From an uncultured Anaerolineae bacterium (lineage in GTDB: Bacteria; Chloroflexota; Anaerolineae; Anaerolineales; Villigracilaceae), in the NCBI GenBank assembly GCA_937120535.1, contig CAKZJX010000009.1:1-59014 (forward strand): a DNA stretch of 59,014 nt, written 5' to 3'. The notes under the pieces are model-generated. The model saw only the letters and a program-made list of their open reading frames with translations, was not told the origin of the DNA and made no database searches. Positions 15,656 to 30,526 of the stretch are shown piece after piece. The position numbers and the translations under genes are program-made. Every line of letters starts with the position of its first letter. Within the stretch, counting starts at the first letter, position 1.

Positions 15656-17815
15656 TTAGGAGTGCTTCTTGGTTCTCTTCTTTTCCTTCTCGAGCAATCG
15701 GGCGCTCAATTGATTGCGGTGCTCCATCAACCATTGCTGGACGTCCAGCGGCGGTTCATCGCCCTGGGGATGCAAGCGCAGGTAGAGGCCATCGGGCTGC
15801 ATCAAGCGAGCCCGTAGGTTGTCGTTCAAGTAGGCTTCCAGCACTTTGTCGCGTAGATGGCGCAGGTGGACTGCGTCTTCGATTGGAAAGAGCACTTCTA
15901 CGCGATGGTTCAAATTGCGCGGCATCAGATCAGCGCTGCCCACGTACATCTCTTCGTGCCCCCCGTTCCAGAAGTAATAGATGCGGCTGTGTTCCAAAAA
16001 ACGCCCTACGATGCTGATCACGCGGATCGACTCGCTGACGCCTTCTATGCCAGGACGCAAGCAGCACATACCGCGCGCCAGCACATCCACGCGCACGCCA
16101 GCCTGAGAAGCGGTGTAGAGCAAGGCGATGATCTGGGGATCTACCAGGGCGTTGGTCTTCAGGATCAGATGGGCTTTCTCGCCCTTTTTAGCGTGCTCGA
16201 TCTCGCGCCAGATCAAGGCCTCCAAGCGCTGTCGTAGGTTCACCGGCGCTACCAACAACTTGCGATAATTCCGAATAGCCGAGTAGCCGGTCAAAAAATT
16301 GAACAAGTCGGTGGCGTCGGCGCCGATCGCCTCATCGCAGGTAAACAAGCCGATGTCTTCATAGATGGCGCTGGTCACTGCGTTGTAGTTGCCGCTGGCC
16401 AGATGCACATAACGGCGGATGCCGTCTCCTTCTTGGCGCACCACCATAGCGATCTTGCAGTGGGTCTTGAGTCCCACCAATCCGTACACCACGTGCACAC
16501 CGGCCTGCTCCAACTTGCGCGCCCAACCGATGTTGCTCTCCTCATCGAAGCGGGCCTTCAGCTCCACCAACACGGCCACTTGCTTGCCGCGCTCAACGGC
16601 CTCGAGCAAGGCCTCCACCACGGGCGAGTCCTTTCCCACGCGGTAGAGAGTCTGCTTGATGGCCAGCACATGCGGGTCGCGCGCTGCAGCGCTCAAGAGC
16701 CCGACCACCGGCATAAACGAATCGTAGGGGTGATGAAGCAGGATGTTCTGTTGGCGGATGGCAGCAAACACATCCTCGGTTGCCGATAAGTTGCGGAACG
16801 ATTTGGGTAGATGAGGTTTGTAGGGGGGAAATTTCAGATCATGCCGCTCGATCTGATAGAGTTGCATCAAGGCAGCTAGCCCTAGGGGAAAGGACTGTAC
16901 GAATATATTGCTCGGTTCGATTTCCAGGTTTTCAATCAGCAGGTCTCGGATGGATTGCGGCATGGAGTCACAGACCGCCACTTGGACCACCGAGCCAAAC
17001 TTGCGCCGCCGCAGGCTCTGCTGAATGCTCTCCAGTAGGTCGTCGGCCTCGATCTCTTGAATTTCGATGTCGGCATCGCGGATCACGCGGAAAGGGTGAA
17101 CAGCGATGACATCCATGCCTGGGAAGAGCAATTCAGCATTGGCGGCGATCACCTCTTCTAGCCAGACGAAGTAATGGTGGTGGGCCACCGTGCCATCCCT
17201 TCGTGTGCTGCCTGAAGAGCGTTTGACCGGCAACAAGCGCGGCAAAGTATTGGGGACCTTGACGCGGGCGAAGCGTTCTTGCCCCTTGCGGTCGCGAATC
17301 ACCACGGCTAGGTTCAGGCTGAGATTCGAGATGTGGGGAAAGGGGTGGCCGGAGTCTAGGGCGAGAGGCGTGAGAATGGGGAAGATCATCTCGCGAAAGC
17401 GGATATCCACCCTTTCTTTCTGGGAGGGGCTGAGTTTTTTGTAGTGTAGGATGTGAATGCCGTGCTTGTCCAGTTGGGGAACGAGTTTGCGGTTGAAGAG
17501 GCGGGTGGCTTGGTCGAACAATTCGGTAGCGCGTTTGCGAATGGAGGCCAGCTGTTGGCGCGGAGTTAGGCCGTCAGGGGAGAGGTCGAGCACTTGGGCT
17601 TCTACTTGTTTGAGCAGGCCCGAGACGCGCACCATGAAGAACTCGTCCATGTTTGAGCCGAAGATGGAGAGGAACTTGACCCGCTCCAGCAGGGGATTGC
17701 GTTCATCATCGGCTTCTTCCAACACTCGCGCTTGGAATTCGAGCAGGCTGAGTTCGCGGTTGATATACAACGAGGGATCTAAGGGGACGATCTCTTTTGG
17801 ATCGGGGGGACTCAT
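15656..17815 (-). CDS. ppk: Polyphosphate kinase 1
   Basis: Reversibly polymerises the gamma phosphate of ATP into polyphosphate at the membrane. The 719-residue protein has the PPK1 domains: N-terminal (YINRELSLLEFQARVLEEA, and FLSIFGSNMDEFFMVRV), head (FPHISNLSLNLAV), and the two C-terminal PLD-like domains with RYVHLASGNYN (the phospho-histidine) and HSRIYYFWNGG. The ATG at 17815 overlaps the sixA stop in an ATGA arrangement, so translation is coupled. With sixA, the CHAD gene and ppx it forms a polyphosphate gene group. Confidence 0.96.
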   Translation of the reverse strand: MSPPDPKEIVPLDPSLYINRELSLLEFQARVLEEADDERNPLLERVKFLSIFGSNMDEFFMVRVSGLLKQVEAQVLDLSPDGLTPRQQLASIRKRATELFDQATRLFNRKLVPQLDKHGIHILHYKKLSPSQKERVDIRFREMIFPILTPLALDSGHPFPHISNLSLNLAVVIRDRKGQERFARVKVPNTLPRLLPVKRSSGSTRRDGTVAHHHYFVWLEEVIAANAELLFPGMDVIAVHPFRVIRDADIEIQEIEADDLLESIQQSLRRRKFGSVVQVAVCDSMPQSIRDLLIENLEIEPSNIFVQSFPLGLAALMQLYQIERHDLKFPPYKPHLPKSFRNLSATEDVFAAIRQQNILLHHPYDSFMPVVGLLSAAARDPHVLAIKQTLYRVGKDSPVVEALLEAVERGKQVAVLVELKARFDEESNIGWARKLEQAGVHVVYGLVGLKTHCKIAMVVRQEGDGIRRYVHLASGNYNAVTSAIYEDIGLFTCDEAIGADATDLFNFLTGYSAIRNYRKLLVAPVNLRQRLEALIWREIEHAKKGEKAHLILKTNALVDPQIIALLYTASQAGVRVDVLARGMCCLRPGIEGVSESIRVISIVGRFLEHSRIYYFWNGGHEEMYVGSADLMPRNLNHRVEVLFPIEDAVHLRHLRDKVLEAYLNDNLRARLMQPDGLYLRLHPQGDEPPLDVQQWLMEHRNQLSARLLEKEKKRTKKHS

Positions 17816-18327
17816 GCCTTCTTGCCGATTTTGATCAGATGGGACGGGAAGAGCGCCCAATCCAGCGTAGCGCAGCGTTCGTAGTGCAAAGCGTCTACGG
17901 AGAGCCGGCACACGCCGCCTTTCTTCAAGGTCAACGCCAGATGGGGCTCGCCGGTGGTCAATAAGGAGACCAATTCGCTCAGGTAGGGTTCATGCCCGAC
18001 CAGGGCAATGTGCTGCGCCTCGGTGTATCGGGTTTGAATTTCTTCGATCAGTTGATCGGGAAAACCCATAGGGATCAGATGCTCGGTGGAGATCACCTTG
18101 GCCGGGTCGAGGTCATAGGTTTGGCGGAGGATCTCCGCCGTCTGGATGGCTCGCAGGTAAGGGCTGGTGAGGATCAGGTCGAGCCGCTTTTCCAGCTCCC
18201 GCAGTCCGCGGGCGATGCGAACCATCTTCTTGCGCCCCTTCGGGGTAAGCGGGCGTTGGCTGTCGGCTTCGGCGCCGGTCTCCTCGGCCGGCGCGGCGAT
18301 GGCGTGTCGGATGATGTACAGTCTCAT
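17812..18327 (-). CDS. sixA: Phosphohistidine phosphatase SixA family protein
   Basis: A 171-residue histidine phosphatase of the phosphoglycerate mutase superfamily. It has RHAIA (catalytic His 8), the ILTSPYLRAIQTAEIL segment with the second catalytic Arg, and GHEPYLSELVSLL with the second catalytic His. The start ATG has AGGAG seven bases upstream. Because PPK1 works through a phospho-histidine, its position before ppk hints at a link, but this is only an inference. The first 215 bp overlap the reading frame of the upstream CHAD gene. Confidence 0.9.
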   Translation of the reverse strand: MRLYIIRHAIAAPAEETGAEADSQRPLTPKGRKKMVRIARGLRELEKRLDLILTSPYLRAIQTAEILRQTYDLDPAKVISTEHLIPMGFPDQLIEEIQTRYTEAQHIALVGHEPYLSELVSLLTTGEPHLALTLKKGGVCRLSVDALHYERCATLDWALFPSHLIKIGKKA

Positions 18328-19201
18328 CGGCGTTCTCCTGGAGGGGTGGCTGGGGGGGCTCCCATGGGAAGGGTTGATCGGGTTGGGATCGCCAGAAGGT
18401 GAACAAGGTCTCTCGCACGTTCATGAATTCGGTGATGCGCGCCGAGCGATGTTGTTCCAGGGCGGCGCGCACCGGCAGCATGTCGTGTTCAGGATAGCGC
18501 TCGGCAAAGTCGTTCACCATCTGCAGGAGCACTTCTACGTCCTGCACCTCGCCCATCTTGCTCTGGTAATCGTGCATGGCTTTCATCAGCTCCTCGGGAT
18601 GACCACGCAAGGCAGGACGGGCAATCTCTACCACATAGCGGAATTTTTTGAAGGCGATGCGCAGGCGATGAATGGATGCGGCGTCGCTTGGATCGAGTTG
18701 CTGATAGGCCTGCTGGGCGCGTTCGAAGGCCTGGTCCACGGCGGCGACGAGTCGCTTTCGGAACCCTCGCGCAGGGAGGCCAGCCTCGAGCGACTCGTAC
18801 AACCGCTCGATGCGCTTGCTCAATTTGGCCAGGAGCGAGCGGGTCAGCTCGCCCTCGGCCTGGCGCAGCAGTTTTTTCTCCTGTCGTTTCAGGCGTTGGA
18901 GCAGGGGTTCGGCCTGGGGAAGCTCTTGCAACAGTTCGGCGCCATCCGCCAGCTGGACTTGGACGTCACGTAGCTCGTCCAGGCTATCCAAAAAGCGCTT
19001 GAAGGCGCGACGCGTTTTTTGAAGCTCAGGCGAGGGGGCGAAGGTGCGCGCCATGTCTAGGACGGCTAACAAGCGACGCGAGGCCACACGCAAGTCGTGG
19101 ACGGCTTCCTCCGAGAAGTTGCGCCGGCAGGCTTTGAATTCGGCGCGAAAGGTGTCTAGGCACTTGCTCAGAGCGTGTAGCAAGGGATTGGGTTGGACCA
19201 T
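18113..19201 (-). CDS. CHAD domain protein with long overlap into sixA
   Basis: CHAD domains are helical bundles with conserved histidines and many basic residues that bind inorganic polyphosphate. Residues about 1-280 show the pattern: HDLRVASRRLLAVLDMAR near 35-52, later IHRLRIAFKKFRYVVEIA, then QSKMGEVQDVEVL. The start ATG 19201 follows the strong site AGGAAGGAGATAGCT. The frame does not stop at the end of the domain. It continues 71 residues (292-362) in another phase over the sixA start, giving an Arg/Pro/His-rich tail. Either the genes overlap by 215 bp or the original stop has been lost. Confidence 0.88.
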   Translation of the reverse strand: MVQPNPLLHALSKCLDTFRAEFKACRRNFSEEAVHDLRVASRRLLAVLDMARTFAPSPELQKTRRAFKRFLDSLDELRDVQVQLADGAELLQELPQAEPLLQRLKRQEKKLLRQAEGELTRSLLAKLSKRIERLYESLEAGLPARGFRKRLVAAVDQAFERAQQAYQQLDPSDAASIHRLRIAFKKFRYVVEIARPALRGHPEELMKAMHDYQSKMGEVQDVEVLLQMVNDFAERYPEHDMLPVRAALEQHRSARITEFMNVRETLFTFWRSQPDQPFPWEPPQPPLQENADETVHHPTRHRRAGRGDRRRSRQPTPAYPEGAQEDGSHRPRTAGAGKAARPDPHQPLPASHPDGGDPPPNL

Positions 19202-19309
19202 AGCTATCTCCTTCCTGTGGCGAGAGGGCCATCAACGGCAGTGAGGCCGGCCTTCGCCAAGCCTGGGCGAAAAGAGCGGCTCCGACGTTGCCGTAGACAG
19301 CGCTAACAA

Positions 19310-20821
19310 TTATCGAATCTCCAATTTCACGCCGTACACCTCCTCAAACAAGGCCTTCCGCTTCTGCAGCGCCCAGCGTTCGAGCATAAAGTCGCCTTCA
19401 CCGTGCAAGGAAAGCCGCCAACCCTGGGCGGTATGCTGCATCGAGACACTGTGAACGCGTCCGGTGTGACTGACATCCATGCTGTCGGCCAAGCGAAGCA
19501 GGGCTTCCAGGCGGAGCACGGTCAGCCGATCTTTGGGGGAGAGGATTCGGAAGTGTTCTTCGTCCAGGCTTGGGGTGTGTTTACGATGGTAGTAGGCCAG
19601 ATTGGCGACGATGGCTTGTTGGCGGTCGTTCAACCCGATCAGACGGTGGGCCTTTAGGACGTAGTAGCTGTGTTTTTCGTGGTCGATGGTGCTGATAAAG
19701 TGACCGATGTCGTGCAGCAGGGAGGCCACTTCTAGGAGTAACCGTTCTTCGTCGTTGAGGTTGTGGAGCGGCAGGGTCTGATCGAACAGTTGGGCGGCCA
19801 GGCGGGCAGTGAGGTGGGCGTGTCTGGCGTCATATTGGTATTTTTCGCCCATGCCCAGCGCCGATTGCCACACTTGTTTTCGGTCCAGGAATTTTTGGCC
19901 GCCCATGATGCGAGCCATTTGATGGAGCACGCCGTCTTTCAGGCCGACTTTGGGGATCAGAATCTGATGGACGCGTGCTTCGCGGGCGATGATCTGCAAG
20001 ACGATGGCCGCCGGCAAGATGACGTCGGCGCGATCGGGACGCAACTCGTATTTGCGGATGCGCTGTTCCACGGTGAGTTTGCTTAGTTTTTCGATCAGGT
20101 CCTGCAGTTCGCCGAGCGAGATGGCTTTGTCGCTGCGTTCGAAGAGTTTTGAGCGCAGGCGTCCCAGTTCTTCGACGTTGCCGCCAGTGCCGATGCATAG
20201 GTGGATTTTGCGCGAGCCGATGTCCCGCTCGATGCGACGACGGGCGGCTTCGGCATATTCGCGCACGAGGAGATGGAAGGGCCGGCGCGCTGAGACAGTG
20301 TCGTTCTGCTGGTCCAGTTTGTTGAGCAGGCGCACGGTGCCCATGTTGTAGCTTTCGGTGGACAGGATCTGCCCGTCTTCTGAAATGGTGACTTCCACGC
20401 TGCCGCCACCGATATCGATCAGCACAGCACGCTTCTCCCCCAGGTCCACCGCATGGCTGACGGCCAGGTGAATCAGCTCGGCTTCCTCTTCTCCGCTGAT
20501 AATTTCAATCTCGATTCCAGTAGCGCGCAGGATGCGATCGATCAGGATGTCGCTATTGGCCGATTCGCGCATAGCACTGGTAGCTACTGCACGAATGGCA
20601 GAAACTCCCATGGCATCGGCCGCTTTGCGAAAGAAAAGGAATGCTTCAACGGCTTTTTGGATGGTTGCTTCGCTCAATCGGCCTAGGGTGAAGGCGTCTG
20701 CTCCCAGGCGGACGGGGAGGCGAATGTTTTCCAGGACGCGCACGTGATCAGGCTTTTCCGTCTCGCCGATCACCATGCGGATCGCGTTTGATCCAATGTC
20801 AACAGCAGCGATTCGTTGCAT
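19310..20821 (-). CDS. ppx: Exopolyphosphatase (Ppx/GppA family) with HD domain
   Basis: Removes terminal phosphates from polyphosphate or pppGpp. The 503-residue protein has the ASKHA ATPase fold with DIGSNAIRMVI at the N-terminus, SGEEEAELI, and IDIGGGSVEV, then a C-terminal HD domain (VASLLHDIGHFIS). This two-part layout fits Ppx. No Shine-Dalgarno sequence is visible; TATAAT (complement of 20828-20833) lies just 6 bp before the ATG, so the message is probably leaderless. It belongs with the CHAD, sixA and ppk genes downstream. Confidence 0.93.
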   Translation of the reverse strand: MQRIAAVDIGSNAIRMVIGETEKPDHVRVLENIRLPVRLGADAFTLGRLSEATIQKAVEAFLFFRKAADAMGVSAIRAVATSAMRESANSDILIDRILRATGIEIEIISGEEEAELIHLAVSHAVDLGEKRAVLIDIGGGSVEVTISEDGQILSTESYNMGTVRLLNKLDQQNDTVSARRPFHLLVREYAEAARRRIERDIGSRKIHLCIGTGGNVEELGRLRSKLFERSDKAISLGELQDLIEKLSKLTVEQRIRKYELRPDRADVILPAAIVLQIIAREARVHQILIPKVGLKDGVLHQMARIMGGQKFLDRKQVWQSALGMGEKYQYDARHAHLTARLAAQLFDQTLPLHNLNDEERLLLEVASLLHDIGHFISTIDHEKHSYYVLKAHRLIGLNDRQQAIVANLAYYHRKHTPSLDEEHFRILSPKDRLTVLRLEALLRLADSMDVSHTGRVHSVSMQHTAQGWRLSLHGEGDFMLERWALQKRKALFEEVYGVKLEIR

Positions 20822-21050: not shown

Positions 21051-21695
21051 CTAGGGGAGGAGAGGGTCATGGCTGGCAGCCGAATCAGCCGATGCCGAGC
21101 AGCAGATGGCCGCTGCGCAGTGGGCGACGTAGGTCAGATGGCGTGCTAGCCTGAGGATGAGGGACAAGCGTTCCTCATCGCCTGTTTGGTTCTCGCTCAC
21201 CAGGTCCAAGGCACTGTAGTAGATGATGTGGAAGAGGGAGTCAAGCTGCTGGAGATGGTAGGCCAATCGGTGGGGGGACTCTGGATCCCGTTCCAGGAAG
21301 GCAGCGAAGGCTTCTTGCAGCAAGGAGAAGACGCGCTGCGCCATGAGGTTGAGATCGGCCAGCAAGGTGGTCTCGGAGGGCGAGGGCGCCGGCAGCAGGG
21401 CTTGCAGCTGGTGCTCCAGTTGTTCTAGCTCTTGGGCTAGAACGAGGAGCGCAGCTAGCCCGTTCAGGCGATGGGCGTCGAGAGGAGTAGCTTCGGGCTG
21501 AGAAGCGTTCGTCCGCTCTGGGGGGTCGGCTAAGAGGCGTCGAAAACGGTAGGCGATTGGGCCGGCGAGATCATCTATCAGGGTGGCGCCGCACAAGCAG
21601 GGGAGGTGCTGAGGGAAGTAGGGGAAATGGGCCATAAGGAGTTCCAGGCGGGCGAGACGCTGTGGGCGAGAGAGTGGCTTTGGGAGAGTGAACAC
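21051..21695 (-). CDS. PhoU-like helical protein, Pho-box promoter
   Basis: A 214-residue protein I can place only by pattern. Residues about 105-195 read like a PhoU repeat: hydrophobic heptads, the SLFHIIYYSALDLVSE segment and a final LARHLTYVAHCAAAIC, in the place of PhoU's ERxxDHxxNIAE. The N-terminal part (1-60) has a CLCG pair and no recognised domain. The start is GTG at 21695. The upstream region carries five heptamers at 11-bp intervals, so expression should rise under phosphate starvation. It is divergent from the 33-residue peptide gene. A function in phosphate signalling is an inference. Confidence 0.6.
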   Translation of the reverse strand: MFTLPKPLSRPQRLARLELLMAHFPYFPQHLPCLCGATLIDDLAGPIAYRFRRLLADPPERTNASQPEATPLDAHRLNGLAALLVLAQELEQLEHQLQALLPAPSPSETTLLADLNLMAQRVFSLLQEAFAAFLERDPESPHRLAYHLQQLDSLFHIIYYSALDLVSENQTGDEERLSLILRLARHLTYVAHCAAAICCSASADSAASHDPLLP

Positions 21696-21730: not shown

Positions 21731-21785
21731 ATTTAATCAAGGGAGCGTTAAGAGGGGAGGAAGAAGCTGTTAAGGGCGTGTAAAG
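21731..21785 (-). promoter_or_regulatory. Pho box upstream of the PhoU-like gene
   Basis: On the minus strand five heptamers lie exactly 11 bp apart: CTTTACA (21785-21779), CTTAACA (21774-21768), CTTCCTC (21763-21757, weak), CTTAACG (21752-21746) and CTTGATT (21741-21735). After CTTAACG, 9 bp lead to TTAAAT (21736-21731), a possible -10; TATGAT slightly downstream is another. Phased direct repeats of this kind are the binding pattern of PhoB/PhoP regulators. Confidence 0.75.
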
Positions 21786-21854
21786 GTTGATCGTTCTTCA
21801 GGCGCTTGATGAGGAGGGCAAGACAGCATAGAGCGATAGCATGCAGCAAGAGAA

Positions 21855-21909
21855 TCTAACAAAATGTTAACGTTTTGATAAAGTAGCGTTCGCTGATCGG
21901 GAGTAGAAT
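21855..21909 (+). promoter_or_regulatory. Pho box and promoter of the 33-residue peptide gene
   Basis: Four heptamers at an 11-bp period: TCTAACA (21855), GTTAACG (21866), GATAAAG (21877) and GTTCGCT (21888), then 9 bp and TAGAAT (21904-21909) as -10. The -35 hexamer is poor, which suits an activator-dependent promoter. The match of the outer repeats is weaker than in the two neighbouring sites, but phase and distance to the -10 are the same. Confidence 0.65.
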
Positions 21910-21935
21910 GTCGTTGACGCAGAATGGAGACCAGC

Positions 21936-22037
21936 ATGACAGTGTTTTTAGCACTTACTCTTCTAGCAATGGTGGTTGTGTTCGGTGTGGACATTGTGCA
22001 AAAGCGCCGCGAGGTCTTGCTCAAGCGCAAGGGATAG
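21936..22037 (+). CDS. 33-residue single-span membrane peptide
   Basis: The frame starts at ATG 21936 with GGAG six bases upstream and ends at TAG 22037. The product has a hydrophobic N-terminal half (VFLALTLLAMVVVFGV, about 3-18), followed by a basic tail (QKRREVLLKRKG). This gives a type I or II single-span peptide with a positively charged cytoplasmic tail. It is not recognised. It sits between two Pho-box promoters and has its own. Candidates for its partner are the PhoU-like protein, the Pst transporter or a Pho sensor kinase, all by inference. It is too short for most gene finders. Confidence 0.6.
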   Translation: MTVFLALTLLAMVVVFGVDIVQKRREVLLKRKG

Positions 22038-22101
22038 TTGTTCTCCTCTCCTCCTCCCCGGCCATACGGCCGCTGCCCGCTTAATCAGGCGGGCAGTTGC
22101 G

Positions 22102-22167
22102 TTTAACAGGAACGAATCCAAATCTTAATGAGCGCTTGACGATTCCTTAACACAGGCTTGCTATAGT
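22102..22167 (+). promoter_or_regulatory. Pho box and promoter of the PHP gene
   Basis: Heptamers on an 11-bp grid: TTTAACA (22102), a degenerate unit (22113), CTTAATG (22124), CTTGACG (22135) and CTTAACA (22146-22152). Nine bases later TATAGT (22162-22167) serves as -10. The last repeat covers the -35 position, as in PhoB-activated promoters. A ribosome binding site (GGAG) and ATG at 22194 follow. Confidence 0.82.
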
Positions 22168-22193
22168 TGCTCCGAAGGAAACGGAGTAAACAT

Positions 22194-22907
22194 ATGGGAC
22201 TAGCAGACTTGCACGTTCACACCATCTATAGCTTTGACGGCACCGCATCGGTGCCGGCCGTGTTGCAGCGCGCTCGTCAGGTCGGCTTGGATGTGATTGC
22301 CATCACCGATCATGATGTGGTTGAAGGTGCTCGGTTGGCCTTGGACTTGGCGCCTGTTTATGGGATTGAGGTGATCCCCGGGATCGAGATCAGTACAGCA
22401 GATGGTGACCTGTTGGCGCTCTCGGTGTGGGAGCGCATCGCCCCTGGCCGTTCGCTGATCGAGACGGTGTTGGCCGTCCGTGAACGAGGGGGGGTGTGCA
22501 TTGTCCCCCACCCTCAGGCTCGTGGCTTGGGGATGCGTAGTGTCGCCGTGCCGACGTTGGTGAAGGCGCTGTTGCATCCAGGGGTGGCCGATACGTTGGT
22601 TGGGGTTGAGGCCTATAATGCTACGGCGTTGGATCGAATGGGCATCGCTACGGCGCGATTACTCACCAGCGGGTTGAACTTGGCTTCGGTGGGAAACAGC
22701 GATGCTCATGTGACGGCGGCCATTGGACTGGGGGCCACCGAGTTCCCCGGCCATACGGCGGCCGATTTGTTGGCTGCTCTGCGTGCCCGCCAGACTGTGG
22801 CTCATCGTCGAGAGGAGTGGAGTGTGTTTCAGATCTTGGGAAGTTGGTTGTTTGGCTATTTGGGAAGCTTGTCCGCTCGTTTGGGGATGGCGATCGGGTT
22901 AGGCTAG
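22194..22907 (+). CDS. PHP-domain metal-dependent phosphoesterase
   Basis: About 237 residues. The PHP metal site is complete: LHVHT near the start, ITDHD, PGIEIS, IVPHPQ and SVGNSDAHV. A C-terminal hydrophobic stretch ends GLG. Relatives include the RNase AM/YciV nucleotide phosphatases, which release phosphate from 3',5'-nucleotides. The Pho-box promoter directly upstream supports a role in phosphate scavenging. The start at 22194 has GGAG seven bases upstream and is nine codons inside the longest frame. Confidence 0.88.
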   Translation: MGLADLHVHTIYSFDGTASVPAVLQRARQVGLDVIAITDHDVVEGARLALDLAPVYGIEVIPGIEISTADGDLLALSVWERIAPGRSLIETVLAVRERGGVCIVPHPQARGLGMRSVAVPTLVKALLHPGVADTLVGVEAYNATALDRMGIATARLLTSGLNLASVGNSDAHVTAAIGLGATEFPGHTAADLLAALRARQTVAHRREEWSVFQILGSWLFGYLGSLSARLGMAIGLG

Positions 22908-23180
22908 GTGTTCAGTATGTTCATTTTTCGTTTGGGGGTAGGGTAGCAAGGTGAAGGCGTTTGGAGGGGTTCGGCCTCTACAGCAGGGGTGGCCGAAGCA
23001 ACCATCATGAATAGGGGAGACGAAGTCATGAGCGGCGGTCGTTGTTTTGATCCGCCGAGCAGGGGCCAGCGCGCCTTTGCACATTGATGGGCAGGTTTTG
23101 CCTATCGTTCGCCAGAGCCTGGTTTCAATGTTGGCGGGGTACGGTGGACGAAGTAACGATTTTAGGATACACTATTTTCT

Positions 23181-23963
23181 ATGCAGAAGCACATTTTGGT
23201 CACAAACGATGATGGGATTCTATCGGCTGGGTTGTTGGCGCTGGCCCAGGAGATGCACAAGGTGGGACGAGTGAGCGTTCTGGCGCCTGAACGCAACTGG
23301 TCGGGTGGAGGACACGTGAAAACGCTGGATCGGGCGCTGCGCGTTCGCGAGTATCGCCTGGCCGATGGGTCTACGGCATTTGCTAGCGACGGCGCGCCTT
23401 CAGATTGTGTGGCGCTGGCCTTGCTGGGGTATTTCAAGGAGACGTTCGACCTGGTCGTTTCCGGGATCAACTATGGGGCCAATTTGGGATACGATGTGAC
23501 GTATTCGGGCACGGTCACGGCGGCGATGGAAGCGGTGATTATGGGGGTGCCGGGCGTGGCTGTGTCGCTGGAGGTGCCGGAAGGACAGATCGGGGATGCG
23601 GACTATGGGCCGGCGGCGCGCGCCGCTCGTGAGGTGGTGGAGCGCTTGATCAAGAATGGGCTGCCGGCCGGCATTTTGCTCAACGTGAATGTGCCGGCCC
23701 TGCCGGCCGATCAAATCAAGGGGTATATGATGACTCGCCAGGGGTTGCGCGTCTATCACAATCGCTTGGACGAGCGGACCGATCCACGGGGCCGGCCGTA
23801 TTATTGGATCGGCGGCGACGCACCGACTGGAGTGCCGGAGCGCGGAACCGACGTGGGTGCTTTGGCCGAGGGGTACATCTCGGTTACACCGTTGCAGTTG
23901 GATCTGACGGCGTATCGCGCTCTCAGCGACTTGAACACTTGGGGGTTTCCAGATTATCCCTGA
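23181..23963 (+). CDS. surE: 5'/3'-nucleotidase SurE
   Basis: Metal-dependent nucleoside monophosphate phosphatase, 260 residues. It starts LVTNDDGILSAGLLAL, the SurE hallmark with the two metal-binding Asp residues, followed by APERNWSGGGH, SDCVALAL, VSGINYGANLG (metal Asn) and YSGTVTAAMEA. The length is normal. There is no Shine-Dalgarno sequence; TACACT (23168-23173) sits 7 nt before the ATG, so a leaderless message is likely. The 273-bp gap after the PHP gene holds no evident Pho box or gene, so its control seems separate. Its position inside the phosphate island fits nucleotide salvage. Confidence 0.95.
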   Translation: MQKHILVTNDDGILSAGLLALAQEMHKVGRVSVLAPERNWSGGGHVKTLDRALRVREYRLADGSTAFASDGAPSDCVALALLGYFKETFDLVVSGINYGANLGYDVTYSGTVTAAMEAVIMGVPGVAVSLEVPEGQIGDADYGPAARAAREVVERLIKNGLPAGILLNVNVPALPADQIKGYMMTRQGLRVYHNRLDERTDPRGRPYYWIGGDAPTGVPERGTDVGALAEGYISVTPLQLDLTAYRALSDLNTWGFPDYP

Positions 23964-24015
23964 TCGTCACGATGGGGCCTTGGATCGCTTCCCACCGCTG
24001 TCGGCGGGAGGTTTC

Positions 24016-24081
24016 GTTAACTGTATGTTTACATGACGTTAACTTGGATTTTTGTTCGCATTAAGAGCACACTGATAATAT
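24016..24081 (+). promoter_or_regulatory. Pho box and promoter of pstS
   Basis: Heptamers at an 11-bp period: GTTAACT (24016), GTTTACA (24027), GTTAACT (24038), a poor unit (24049) and ATTAAGA (24060-24066). Nine bases later TAATAT (24076-24081) can serve as -10. An alternative reading is TTGTTC (24052) with GATAAT (24074), 16 bp apart. The spacing from last repeat to -10 equals that in the other Pho boxes of the window. Shine-Dalgarno AAGGAGAAGAAAGGA leads to the pstS ATG. Confidence 0.82.
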
Positions 24082-24125: not shown

Positions 24126-26102
24126 ATGACCAAAGCAGTCCGATATTCGTTCGTTTTTTTTGTGGCATTGGCCATGGTGCTGGCCGCTTGTGCGCCTGCA
24201 GCAACGCCGGCACCGACGGCAACCAGTGCTCCTGTGAAGCAACCGACGGCAACTTTGGCTCCGACCCAGGCGCCCATGCCGACGGCCACTGAGGTGCCTC
24301 AGCCTATCGTGCTGCCAGAAATCCCTGAACCTGCCTCGGTGACGGGCGACATTATCACGGCTGGTTCTTCGACGGTGTTCCCGTTGTCGGAGCGACTAGC
24401 AGAGCTGTTCCAGCAAGAGGGATACAACGGGCAGATCACGATTGATAGCATCGGCACTGGCGCTGGGTTTGAGCGGTTCTGCAAGGCCGGCGAGACCGAC
24501 ATTGCGAACGCTTCGCGCAAGATCAAGAGCAGCGAGGTCGAGCAATGTGTGGCGATCGGGCGCAAGCCGTTGGAGTTTCGCATAGGGACGGATGCGCTGG
24601 CGGTGGTGGTATCGGCGCAGAACGACTTTGTGAGCGGCCTGAGCGTCGAGCAGCTGGGGAAGATTTTCTCGGGCCAGGTGAAGACCTGGAAGGAGGTAGA
24701 CCCGGCGTTCCCGGCGGAGCCGATCAAGGTGTACTCGCCTGGGGCGGACTCGGGGACGTTCGACTACTTCATCGAGGCAGTGGTAGCGAAGGTAGTGAAG
24801 ACGGCGGAAGGGAAGGATGACGTCAAAGGCGCCAAAGCAGCGTTGTTGGGGCTGGAGGGGGCGCAGTTCTCGGAAGACGATAACGTGCTGGTGCAAGGCA
24901 TTGCTGGGGATAAGTATGCGATTGGGTACTTTGGCTATGCCTACTACCAGGAGAACACGGACAAGCTGAAAGCGATTGCGGTGAACGGGGTGGAAGCGAC
25001 CAAGGAGAACGTGGATGCGGGCACCTATCCGCTTTCGCGGCCGCTGTTCCTGTATAGCGATGCAGGGATCATGCGGGAGAAGCCTCAGGTAGCTGCTTTC
25101 ATCGCCTTCTACTTGCAGCGGGTGAACGACGAGATCCTGGATGTAGGGTACTTCCCGGCCCCTAGCTTGCACGCCGCCTGGGGTGCGTGGCTGTCCACCC
25201 AGGAGGTGACGATTAATCCGGACGCCGTGACGGGCGACATTATCACGGCTGGTTCTTCGACGGTGTTCCCGTTGTCGGAGCGACTAGCAGAGCTGTTCCA
25301 GCAAGAGGGATACAACGGGCAGATCACGATTGATAGCATCGGCACTGGCGCTGGGTTTGAGCGGTTCTGCAAGGCCGGCGAGACCGACATTGCGAACGCT
25401 TCGCGCAAGATCAAGAGCAGCGAGGTCGAGCAATGTGTGGCGATCGGGCGCAAGCCGTTGGAGTTTCGCATAGGGACGGATGCGCTGGCGGTGGTGGTAT
25501 CGGCGCAGAACGACTTTGTGAGCGGCCTGAGCGTCGAGCAGCTGGGGAAGATTTTCTCGGGCCAGGTGAAGACCTGGAAGGAGGTAGACCCGGCGTTCCC
25601 GGCGGAGCCGATCAAGGTGTACTCGCCTGGGGCGGACTCGGGGACGTTCGACTACTTCATCGAGGCAGTGGTAGCGAAGGTAGTGAAGACGGCGGAAGGG
25701 AAGGATGACGTCAAAGGCGCCAAAGCAGCGTTGTTGGGGCTGGAGGGGGCGCAGTTCTCGGAAGACGATAACGTGCTGGTGCAAGGCATTGCTGGGGATA
25801 AGTATGCGATTGGGTACTTTGGCTATGCCTACTACCAGGAGAACACGGACAAGCTGAAAGCGATTGCGGTGAACGGGGTGGAAGCGACCAAGGAGAACGT
25901 GGATGCGGGCACCTATCCGCTTTCGCGGCCGCTGTTCCTGTATAGCGATGCAGGGATCATGCGGGAGAAGCCTCAGGTAGCTGCTTTCATCGCCTTCTAC
26001 TTGCAGCGGGTGAACGACGAGATCCTGGATGTAGGGTACTTCCCGGCCCCTAGCTTGCACGCCGCCTGGGGTGCGTGGTACGCTGCGATGCTCGGTCAGT
26101 GA
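24126..26102 (+). CDS. pstS: Phosphate ABC transporter substrate-binding lipoprotein, two identical domains
   Basis: A 658-residue PstS with a lipoprotein signal (LAAC, Cys 22), a Thr/Pro/Ala-rich linker (about 25-70) and two periplasmic phosphate-binding domains. Domain 1 is residues 72-355, domain 2 is 368-651, joined by a 12-residue linker (LSTQEVTINPDA). Each begins VTGDIITAGSSTVFPLSERLAE, the typical PstS phosphate loop, and each keeps GADSGTFDYF. Normal PstS proteins have one domain (about 330-370 residues). The domains are encoded by 852-bp DNA repeats that look identical. It heads pstS-pstC-pstA-pstB-phoU behind a Pho box. An assembly artefact should be excluded. Confidence 0.93.
   Translation: MTKAVRYSFVFFVALAMVLAACAPAATPAPTATSAPVKQPTATLAPTQAPMPTATEVPQPIVLPEIPEPASVTGDIITAGSSTVFPLSERLAELFQQEGYNGQITIDSIGTGAGFERFCKAGETDIANASRKIKSSEVEQCVAIGRKPLEFRIGTDALAVVVSAQNDFVSGLSVEQLGKIFSGQVKTWKEVDPAFPAEPIKVYSPGADSGTFDYFIEAVVAKVVKTAEGKDDVKGAKAALLGLEGAQFSEDDNVLVQGIAGDKYAIGYFGYAYYQENTDKLKAIAVNGVEATKENVDAGTYPLSRPLFLYSDAGIMREKPQVAAFIAFYLQRVNDEILDVGYFPAPSLHAAWGAWLSTQEVTINPDAVTGDIITAGSSTVFPLSERLAELFQQEGYNGQITIDSIGTGAGFERFCKAGETDIANASRKIKSSEVEQCVAIGRKPLEFRIGTDALAVVVSAQNDFVSGLSVEQLGKIFSGQVKTWKEVDPAFPAEPIKVYSPGADSGTFDYFIEAVVAKVVKTAEGKDDVKGAKAALLGLEGAQFSEDDNVLVQGIAGDKYAIGYFGYAYYQENTDKLKAIAVNGVEATKENVDAGTYPLSRPLFLYSDAGIMREKPQVAAFIAFYLQRVNDEILDVGYFPAPSLHAAWGAWYAAMLGQ
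24339..25190 (+). repeat. 852-bp direct repeat, copy 1 (within pstS)
   Basis: Identical by eye to 25227-26078 at an offset of 888 bp. Both forward and reverse translations of the two copies agree. Upstream flank (ending GCCTCG) and downstream flank (CTGTCC) are different from those of copy 2, so the repeat boundaries are sharp. Confidence 0.93.
25227..26078 (+). repeat. 852-bp direct repeat, copy 2 (within pstS)
   Basis: Second copy of the PstS domain. The 36-bp spacer before it and the 24 bp after it match neither flank of copy 1. A plain recent tandem duplication would carry the spacer along, so homogenisation of an older duplication by gene conversion is the better reading. Confidence 0.93.
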
Positions 26103-29833: not shown

Positions 29834-30526
29834 ATGCGAGGAGAAATGGTTCGGAAGGCATTTGAAAACGAATTGCAAGAACTGAAGAACGAGATCCTGG
29901 TCCTGGGCAGCATGGTGGAACAAGCGGTATTTGCCTCGATCGAAGCGCTAAAGAAGCGTGATCTTGAAGCTGCTAGGCGCATCTACGATGACGATCGCAA
30001 GATCAACGAAAAGCGCTTCGAGATCGAGGATCGCTGCATGGTTGTGATTGCCACGCAGCAACCCATGGCGCGCGACCTGCGGTTGTTGGCCTCGATACTC
30101 GAGATCACGACGGAACTGGAGCGAATGGGCGATTACGCCAAGGGCATTGCCACCATTAACATTCGCATGGGCGATCAGCCGTTGCTCAAGCCGCTGATCG
30201 ACCTGCCGCGCATGGCCGAAAAAGCGTGCGACATGTTGCATCGCGCTCTGATCGCCTTTGTCAACGAGGATGCCGAAACAGCACGAGCCATCCCTCCCGA
30301 AGACGACGAGGTCGATGCGCTCTATCTTCAGGTTTATCGTGAGTTGATCACCTACATCTTGCAGGATCCCAGGAACATTGAACGGGCGAACATGTTGTTG
30401 TGGGCGGCGCACAACATGGAACGTTTGGCCGATCGCGTGACCAACATCTGCGAGCGCACTGTCTTCGTAGCGACCGGCGAAATGAAAGAATTGCAAACCA
30501 CGCTCCGTCCGGATGAGATGAAGTGA
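29834..30526 (+). CDS. phoU: Phosphate signalling complex protein PhoU
   Basis: Negative regulator that links Pst transport to the Pho two-component system. The 230-residue protein shows two PhoU repeats: the first with LGSMVEQAVFASIEAL, D-x-x-IN-E-KRFEIEDRCMVVIATQQPMARDLRLLASILEITTELERMGDYAKGIA, the second ending AAHNMERLADRVTNICERTVF. These two ERxGD/ERxAD blocks are diagnostic. GTG-like or later starts are possible; ATG 29834 has GGTGG six bases upstream and ATG 29846 follows GAGGAG too closely. It completes the pst operon. Confidence 0.96.
   Translation: MRGEMVRKAFENELQELKNEILVLGSMVEQAVFASIEALKKRDLEAARRIYDDDRKINEKRFEIEDRCMVVIATQQPMARDLRLLASILEITTELERMGDYAKGIATINIRMGDQPLLKPLIDLPRMAEKACDMLHRALIAFVNEDAETARAIPPEDDEVDALYLQVYRELITYILQDPRNIERANMLLWAAHNMERLADRVTNICERTVFVATGEMKELQTTLRPDEMK

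Follow-up and report, generated by a model that had tools for sequence, protein, structure and literature searches.

A Pho box consists of direct 7-bp units with 4-bp spacers, giving an 11-bp period, and contains at least two such units (PMC4415409). The cyanobacterial counterpart, associated with SphR, is CTTAACCT, with at least three 8-bp direct repeats of the TTAACC type joined by 3-bp linkers and located before pst genes (PMC1906773). Small proteins are also tied to this signalling system: DUF1127 proteins interact with PhoR (PMC12501420) and yoaI is a direct PhoB target in Escherichia coli (PMC10294691). Among the open-licence papers listed by PubMed Central (PMC), we found none on a Pho box in Chloroflexota. 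Here we describe four promoters with phased heptamers in a 59,014-nucleotide stretch (the window) of an uncultured Anaerolineae bacterium (GCA_937120535.1, contig CAKZJX010000009.1). The original prediction, made from the letters alone, suspected a Chloroflexota genome, in agreement with the 14 best named relatives of the encoded PHP-domain protein, all of which are Anaerolineales or other Chloroflexota records. The ranks of the four sites in the window, the spacing in relatives, a genome scan and a regulator pair identified by synteny together make it very probable that a PhoB-type activator acts at the four sites, as part of a Chloroflexota Pho regulon whose TTAAC box resembles that of cyanobacteria.

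Phased heptamer promoters in the window

The four sites, each read in the direction of transcription, are as follows.

21731..21785, minus strand: putative Pho-box promoter of a PhoU-like gene; CTTTACA/CTTAACA/CTTCCTC/CTTAACG (21785-21746), 9 bp, TTAAAT (21736-21731) preceded by TGa
21855..21909, plus strand: putative promoter of a short peptide gene; TCTAACA/GTTAACG/GATAAAG/GTTCGCT (21855-21894), 9 bp, TAGAAT (21904-21909)
22113..22167, plus strand: putative Pho-box promoter of the PHP gene; CTTAATG/CTTGACG/CTTAACA (22124-22152), 9 bp, TATAGT (22162-22167) preceded by TGc
24016..24081, plus strand: putative Pho-box promoter of pstS; five heptamers GTTAACT/GTTTACA/GTTAACT/TTTTTGT/ATTAAGA (24016-24066), 9 bp, TAATAT (24076-24081) preceded by TGa

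Rereading of the sequence and scoring of the window placed all four sites exactly where they had been predicted, with direct 7-bp units, 4-bp spacers and a period of 11 bp in each, and on the plus strand the last heptamer indeed ends 9 bp before TAGAAT, TATAGT or TAATAT. The blocks lie just upstream of the -10, in lieu of a -35 element, with a gap of 9 bp in all four sites if the uncertain minus-strand -10 is accepted. TG precedes the -10 in three of the four, the peptide site being the exception. The minus-strand hexamer proposed earlier, TTAAAT, fits the 9-bp gap but lacks the second A, and the match of a model trained on other genomes (R1, below) stops before it (model position 41-44), leaving this -10 unsupported by the model. 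TATGAT, six bases beyond, is an alternative.

The window was scored on both strands for four heptamers near CTTAACA at 11-bp steps, with a hexamer T....T close to TATAAT 9 bp further on. Ranks 1-4 were taken by the four named sites (PhoU-like on the minus strand 26, PHP 25, pstS 21, peptide 21), and the next site scored 18. Top scores in 60 order-3 Markov controls were 17-22 (at least 21 in 4 of 60), and the fourth-best site of a control never exceeded 18. Because this rule was derived from the four sites themselves, it served as a first test only, and the independent evidence comes from promoters of relatives, in which the block was picked without the -10, and from the model trained on other genomes.

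Conservation of the layout in relatives

Homologs of the PHP protein and PstS were sought in 60 relatives, and the top 30 hits for either protein, among them the own copy, were taken as loci. Analysed were 17 PHP loci (L002-L018), 29 pstS loci (L032-L060) and, as the peptide region, 17 regions further upstream of PHP. In every upstream region a four-heptamer block was picked without regard to the -10. A gap of 9 bp then gave the best -10 in 15 of 17 PHP, 17 of 29 pstS and 6 of 17 peptide-region sequences. Mean -10 scores at gap 9 versus the best other gap were 4.8 versus -1.2 for PHP, 1.2 versus -2.0 for pstS and 0.6 versus -2.9 for the peptide region. The four-heptamer score itself exceeded the 95th percentile of resampled regions at 14 of 17 PHP, all 29 pstS and 7 of 17 peptide-region sequences. 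No phased site was seen by eye upstream of the more distant PHP proteins (28-46% identity; L019-L030), which were left out of the gap test; the 17 do include L015 and L017, which likewise lack a site. The single geometry claimed for the window thus recurs in orthologous promoters, including those of 22 of 29 microprotein loci described below.

We assembled 38 sites with a 9-bp gap, none from the genome of the window, as a training set; the gap-9 blocks of pstS loci L033 and L046 and of peptide-region L017 were dropped, and pstS sites L037, L043 and L047 were added after re-registration by eye. Their gapless alignment reads NTTAAC-N5-GTTAAC-N5, then a third unit of which TT remains, a fourth unit TTAA, 9 bp and TAnnnT; 24 of the 38 have the TG of an extended -10. 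The phased heptamer box proposed earlier is found in relatives; its consensus, given as near CTTAACA, is better written YTTAAC. The units of all 38 sites are of this type and do not follow the E. coli-type consensus CTGTCAT.

Scans with a model built from other genomes

The 38 sites were used to build a sequence-only model, R1, which was run against the own genome (3,110,644 bases, 140 contigs; 150 of 267 first-look candidates scored). It gave 6 matches at E<=10, three of them in the window.

C127:9001-9054: E 6.8e-6, ranked first; overlaps a PhoR-like kinase gene at its 3' end, ahead of a glycosyltransferase-like gene, gap again 9 bp
pstS promoter: 23.9 bits, E 1.4e-4
PhoU-like promoter: 17.2 bits, E 0.019
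C18:26561: E 0.029; ahead of a GAF-like gene (GAF_2 below cut-off)
PHP promoter: 15.0 bits, E 0.0995
C54:105893: E 0.2; ahead of an extracytoplasmic function (ECF) sigma gene

Equal hits upstream of unrelated genes had been named in advance as the outcome that would speak against a regulon. The matches fall instead at pstS, PHP, the PhoU-like gene, the phoR 3' end, a GAF-like gene whose site is shared by relatives, and one ECF sigma gene. A simpler two-heptamer pattern in International Union of Pure and Applied Chemistry (IUPAC) code, allowing one mismatch, was useless genome-wide (42 forward and 40 reverse matches versus 166 and 196 for the reversed pattern).

That the geometry could reveal further members was borne out in 41 relatives, where R1 gave 61 matches at E<=0.02 in 26 genomes (26 training and 35 non-training sites; ∼0.8 expected). 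We followed 26 sites to their genes; one was a training site and one had the same sequence as a training site, leaving 24 distinct non-training sites. These precede pstS (6), the microprotein (4; L078, L084, L079 and L080, with surE following directly in L079 and L080), surE (1), PhoU (1), Ppx (1), a glycosyltransferase-like gene (5, the own C127 site among them), a GAF-like gene (3) and unclear genes (3; L093, L094 and L095, the last beside a PhoB-type gene). Hence 13 of the 24 lie ahead of the first five genes in this list and 8 ahead of two recurring new ones; the sites lie before phosphate genes and are not scattered, with 3 of 24 unclear. Pfam confirmed SurE, PstS, PhoU and Ppx in one to three examples each, and the other targets were named by reading translations. 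A site stands directly ahead of surE in L077 and L193. Of the other ten non-training sites, eight lie before pstS by their coordinates, one is the own PhoU-like site and one is in G042:C71.

The glycosyltransferase-like protein (∼342 residues) is conserved and starts near ILFI.GSLNQTT; the own copy is L096:3461-4489 (on C127) and others are in L086, L087, L088 and L089. It had no Pfam match, a partial NCBIfam match to TIGR04396 (33.2 bits versus a cut-off of 125) and two weak PDB matches (E 0.6). The GAF-like protein has a Pho-box-type promoter in four genomes (L074 on own C18, L081, L086 and L091), with GAF above the cut-off in L081 and below it in L086.

Across the phylum, a strictly filtered scan that scored 19 candidates in each genome gave an R1 match at E<=0.001 in 42 of 301 genomes (training genomes included). 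Reading of translations behind 20 of these sites gave PstS-like proteins (9), methylglyoxal synthase (3; L178, L180 and L196) and, in L177, a frame that begins alike but is broken or short, a PhoR-type kinase (L181, 50% identical to the C127 kinase), a PstC-like protein (L187), SurE (L193), a metallophosphatase-like protein (L183) and unclear products (L179, L190 and L192). The four methylglyoxal synthase sites share the same geometry and belong to one family (f30) of small-genome Chloroflexota; PF02142 was checked in L196 only. Methylglyoxal synthase is part of a phosphate-releasing bypass of glycolysis, with which phosphate control would fit. We regard the glycosyltransferase-like and GAF proteins as likely further members of the regulon, joined in other parts of the phylum by methylglyoxal synthase.

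The candidate PhoB/PhoR pair

The own genome encodes ten Trans_reg_C proteins, of which seven, together with three kinases, were scanned against NCBIfam. The kinase on contig C127, which has PAS, HisKA and HATPase domains, is the strongest candidate for PhoR: its PhoR-model score was 284.1 versus 222.2 and 218.2 for two other kinases. The nearest PDB sequence to its partner regulator is RegX3, the mycobacterial phosphate regulator. In ten microprotein loci of relatives, the kinase encoded next upstream shares 55-71% identity with the C127 kinase; for three other kinases of the own genome the figure is 35-42%, taken over a shorter core. Relatives keep the C127-type kinase and regulator within the PHP/pst block, and genomes such as G001 and G005 have the order phoB-phoR-box-microprotein-box-PHP-surE-box-pstS. 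In the own assembly, phoBR lies on the separate contig C127 with the glycosyltransferase-like gene behind it. Family scores alone leave the regulator undecided; synteny settles the C127 pair as the predicted PhoB/PhoR, which answers the call in the original prediction to find these genes.

A conserved microprotein and the other genes of the window

The genes behind the four sites, with associated features, are as follows.

21051..21695, minus strand: PhoU-like gene, GTG start; PhoU PF01895 at 28.8 bits (cut-off 23.5)
21936..22037, plus strand: 33-residue microprotein gene; one hydrophobic stretch, then D-x3-KRR; 37 residues if the start is instead the in-frame ATG at 21924
22073..22096, plus strand: terminator-like hairpin read from the sequence, between the peptide gene and the PHP promoter; 8-bp perfect stem, 8-base loop, then TTGCGTTT
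22194..22907, plus strand: PHP-domain phosphoesterase-like gene; PF02811 and PF13263 above cut-off
23181..23963, plus strand: surE; PF01975
24126..26102, plus strand: pstS encoding two fused PstS domains; PF12849 in two stretches
26466, 27415 and 28686: pstC, pstA and pstB, after pstS; named from reading translations
29834-30526: phoU, after the pst genes; PhoU PF01895

Homologs of the microprotein have ∼31-44 residues, with one hydrophobic stretch and then D-x3-K(R). A match at E<=1e-5 was present in 59 of 120 family genomes, 11 of which have two or more copies. Ten of the 59 supplied alignment rows, and V, D and K are invariant in all 12 rows (one a duplicate). Among 86 pairs of 30 cores, which are not independent, single-change codons were synonymous in 466 cases and nonsynonymous in 230, with 185 synonymous expected without selection; this pattern indicates that the gene is under purifying selection. 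No Pfam or NCBIfam match at E<=0.01 was found (12 rows for Pfam), DUF1127 included. Of the 29 best loci besides the own one, 22 have the full promoter layout at the gene start or no more than 200 bases ahead of it; five of these 22 are training sites, and the test pattern was itself drawn from such sites. The layout was not found at L209, L212, L216, L220, L221, L225 and L227. In the 30 loci, counting the own one, the first gene recognised on the upstream side encodes PhoR (10), the glycosyltransferase-like protein (7), Ppx (3) or a PhoU (2), with none recognised in 8; PHP is next downstream in 21. Hairpins were seen by eye in the same position in L002, L003 and L007. The microprotein is a new, conserved, predicted single-helix membrane protein with its own Pho-box-type promoter.

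A minus-strand polyphosphate cluster (15656-20821: ppk, a phosphohistidine-phosphatase-like gene, CHAD and ppx) lies downstream of the PhoU-like gene. Within pstS, 852 bp (24339-25190) recur exactly 888 bp downstream, in frame. A fused pstS also occurs in two other genera (L032 and L034), with identical runs of 813 and 683 bp within those genomes and proteins 72-76% identical to that of the window; one stop lies inside the second hit of the L032 genome. The repeat may reflect recurrent duplication, concerted evolution or an assembly effect.

Alternative explanations

Several results weigh against assigning the four sites to a Pho regulon. By the three-heptamer score alone (PHP 17, minus strand 16, pstS 15, peptide 13; ten control maxima, of 20 run, 13-15), pstS only reaches the top of the control range and the peptide site lies inside it. 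That site, with two good heptamers (TCTAACA and GTTAACG) and two weak ones (GATAAAG and GTTCGCT), scored 8.8 bits by R1 (E 0.17 within the window), was not among the own-genome matches at E<=10 in the 150 of 267 candidates scored, and is weak taken alone; nor did these candidates yield a match ahead of phoB. In relatives, three-heptamer blocks lower the gap-9 share to 13 of 17 PHP, 9 of 29 pstS and 4 of 17 peptide-region sequences. With four heptamers, the best -10 is elsewhere in 12 of 29 pstS regions, gap 17 being next commonest (4 of 29); some of these show gap 9 in another register by eye. The training sites were picked for gap 9, which means that R1 cannot test the gap independently, and 15 of 41 relatives had no R1 match at E<=0.02. 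The ECF sigma gene behind the C54 match has no connection to phosphate, and that match is unsupported. Chance, or the AT-rich composition of promoters, could account for the peptide site, which alone falls inside the shuffle range, but as an explanation of the whole set it has a negligible probability in view of ranks 1-4 in the window, the same spacing in other genera and the outcome of the own-genome scan.

OmpR-family regulators such as MtrA, YycF and RpaB also bind direct repeats, and the sites could belong to such a protein, whose targets would then include phosphate genes among others. The genome encodes ten Trans_reg_C proteins. The C127 regulator scores higher with the YycF (248.4) and MtrA (230.3) models than with PhoB (221.9), the PhoB score is nearly matched by three other regulators (219.5, 218.8 and 217.6), and all four are below the cut-off of 296.2. 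The C127 kinase likewise falls below its cut-offs (PnpS 324.7 of 400, PhoR 284.1 of 334.2). We nevertheless judge another regulator improbable, given the matches at pst, phoU, PHP and the phoR 3' end, the C127-type pair in the PHP/pst blocks of relatives, and RegX3 as the nearest solved sequence. A narrower alternative is that the peptide frame is untranslated and that a conserved short transcript acts as a Pho-regulated small RNA. A short unit with its own promoter and hairpin would suit such an RNA, whereas the excess of synonymous codon changes and the invariant V, D and K speak for a protein; we regard the RNA as quite unlikely. The assignment of the sites to a Pho regulon rests on sequence, geometry, conservation, genome placement and a regulator pair recognised by orthology and synteny; PhoB binding, phosphorylation, polymerase contact and the phosphate response we infer from these.

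Discussion

At low phosphate, the PhoR-like kinase would phosphorylate the PhoB-like regulator, and two head-to-tail dimers of the latter could occupy four direct heptamers (YTTAAC, one per helical turn) on one face of the DNA. Bound there, PhoB may replace the -35 element and recruit RNA polymerase to the often extended -10 (TGnTAnnnT) located 9 bp past the last heptamer. The window genes behind the four sites are probably turned on at phosphate depletion. The predicted output comprises phosphate uptake (pstSCAB and phoU), phosphoesterases (PHP and surE) and polyphosphate handling (the PhoU-like gene beside ppx and ppk), as well as the glycosyltransferase-like protein, the GAF protein and the membrane microprotein. 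We suggest, tentatively, that the microprotein, made from its own Pho box and encoded directly behind phoR in many relatives, might provide feedback by acting on the membrane portion of PhoR or Pst, tuning or shutting off phosphate signalling in Anaerolineales.

The analysis provides a cross-checked consensus and spacing for putative phosphate control in a phylum for which the open-licence PMC listings showed no Pho-box paper. It ties together regulator pair, motif and target list, by which targets without known function become phosphate-starvation candidates. Several genera keep the microprotein close to phoR and PHP, behind a box of its own, and it is a new candidate component of a signalling pathway that has been studied in depth.

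Like DUF1127 proteins and YoaI, the microprotein is very small and tied to the Pho system; unlike them, it combines a hydrophobic helix and KRR with the lack of a Pfam match. The E. coli K-12 pstS promoter, the sole E. coli promoter compared, resembles the sites described here in its four phased heptamers, degenerate third unit (there CTTACAT) and -10 just downstream, but differs in having TGTCA units and a 10-bp gap rather than TTAAC and 9 bp. The cyanobacterial Pho box is similar in its TTAAC-type direct repeats, 11-bp period and position before pst genes, and the consensus of the 38 sites consists of units like CTTAACCT. The sites described here, whose fixed 9-bp gap to the -10 was compared with E. 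coli pstS alone, differ from it in phylum, in their four heptamers with a degenerate third and in their other predicted regulon members.

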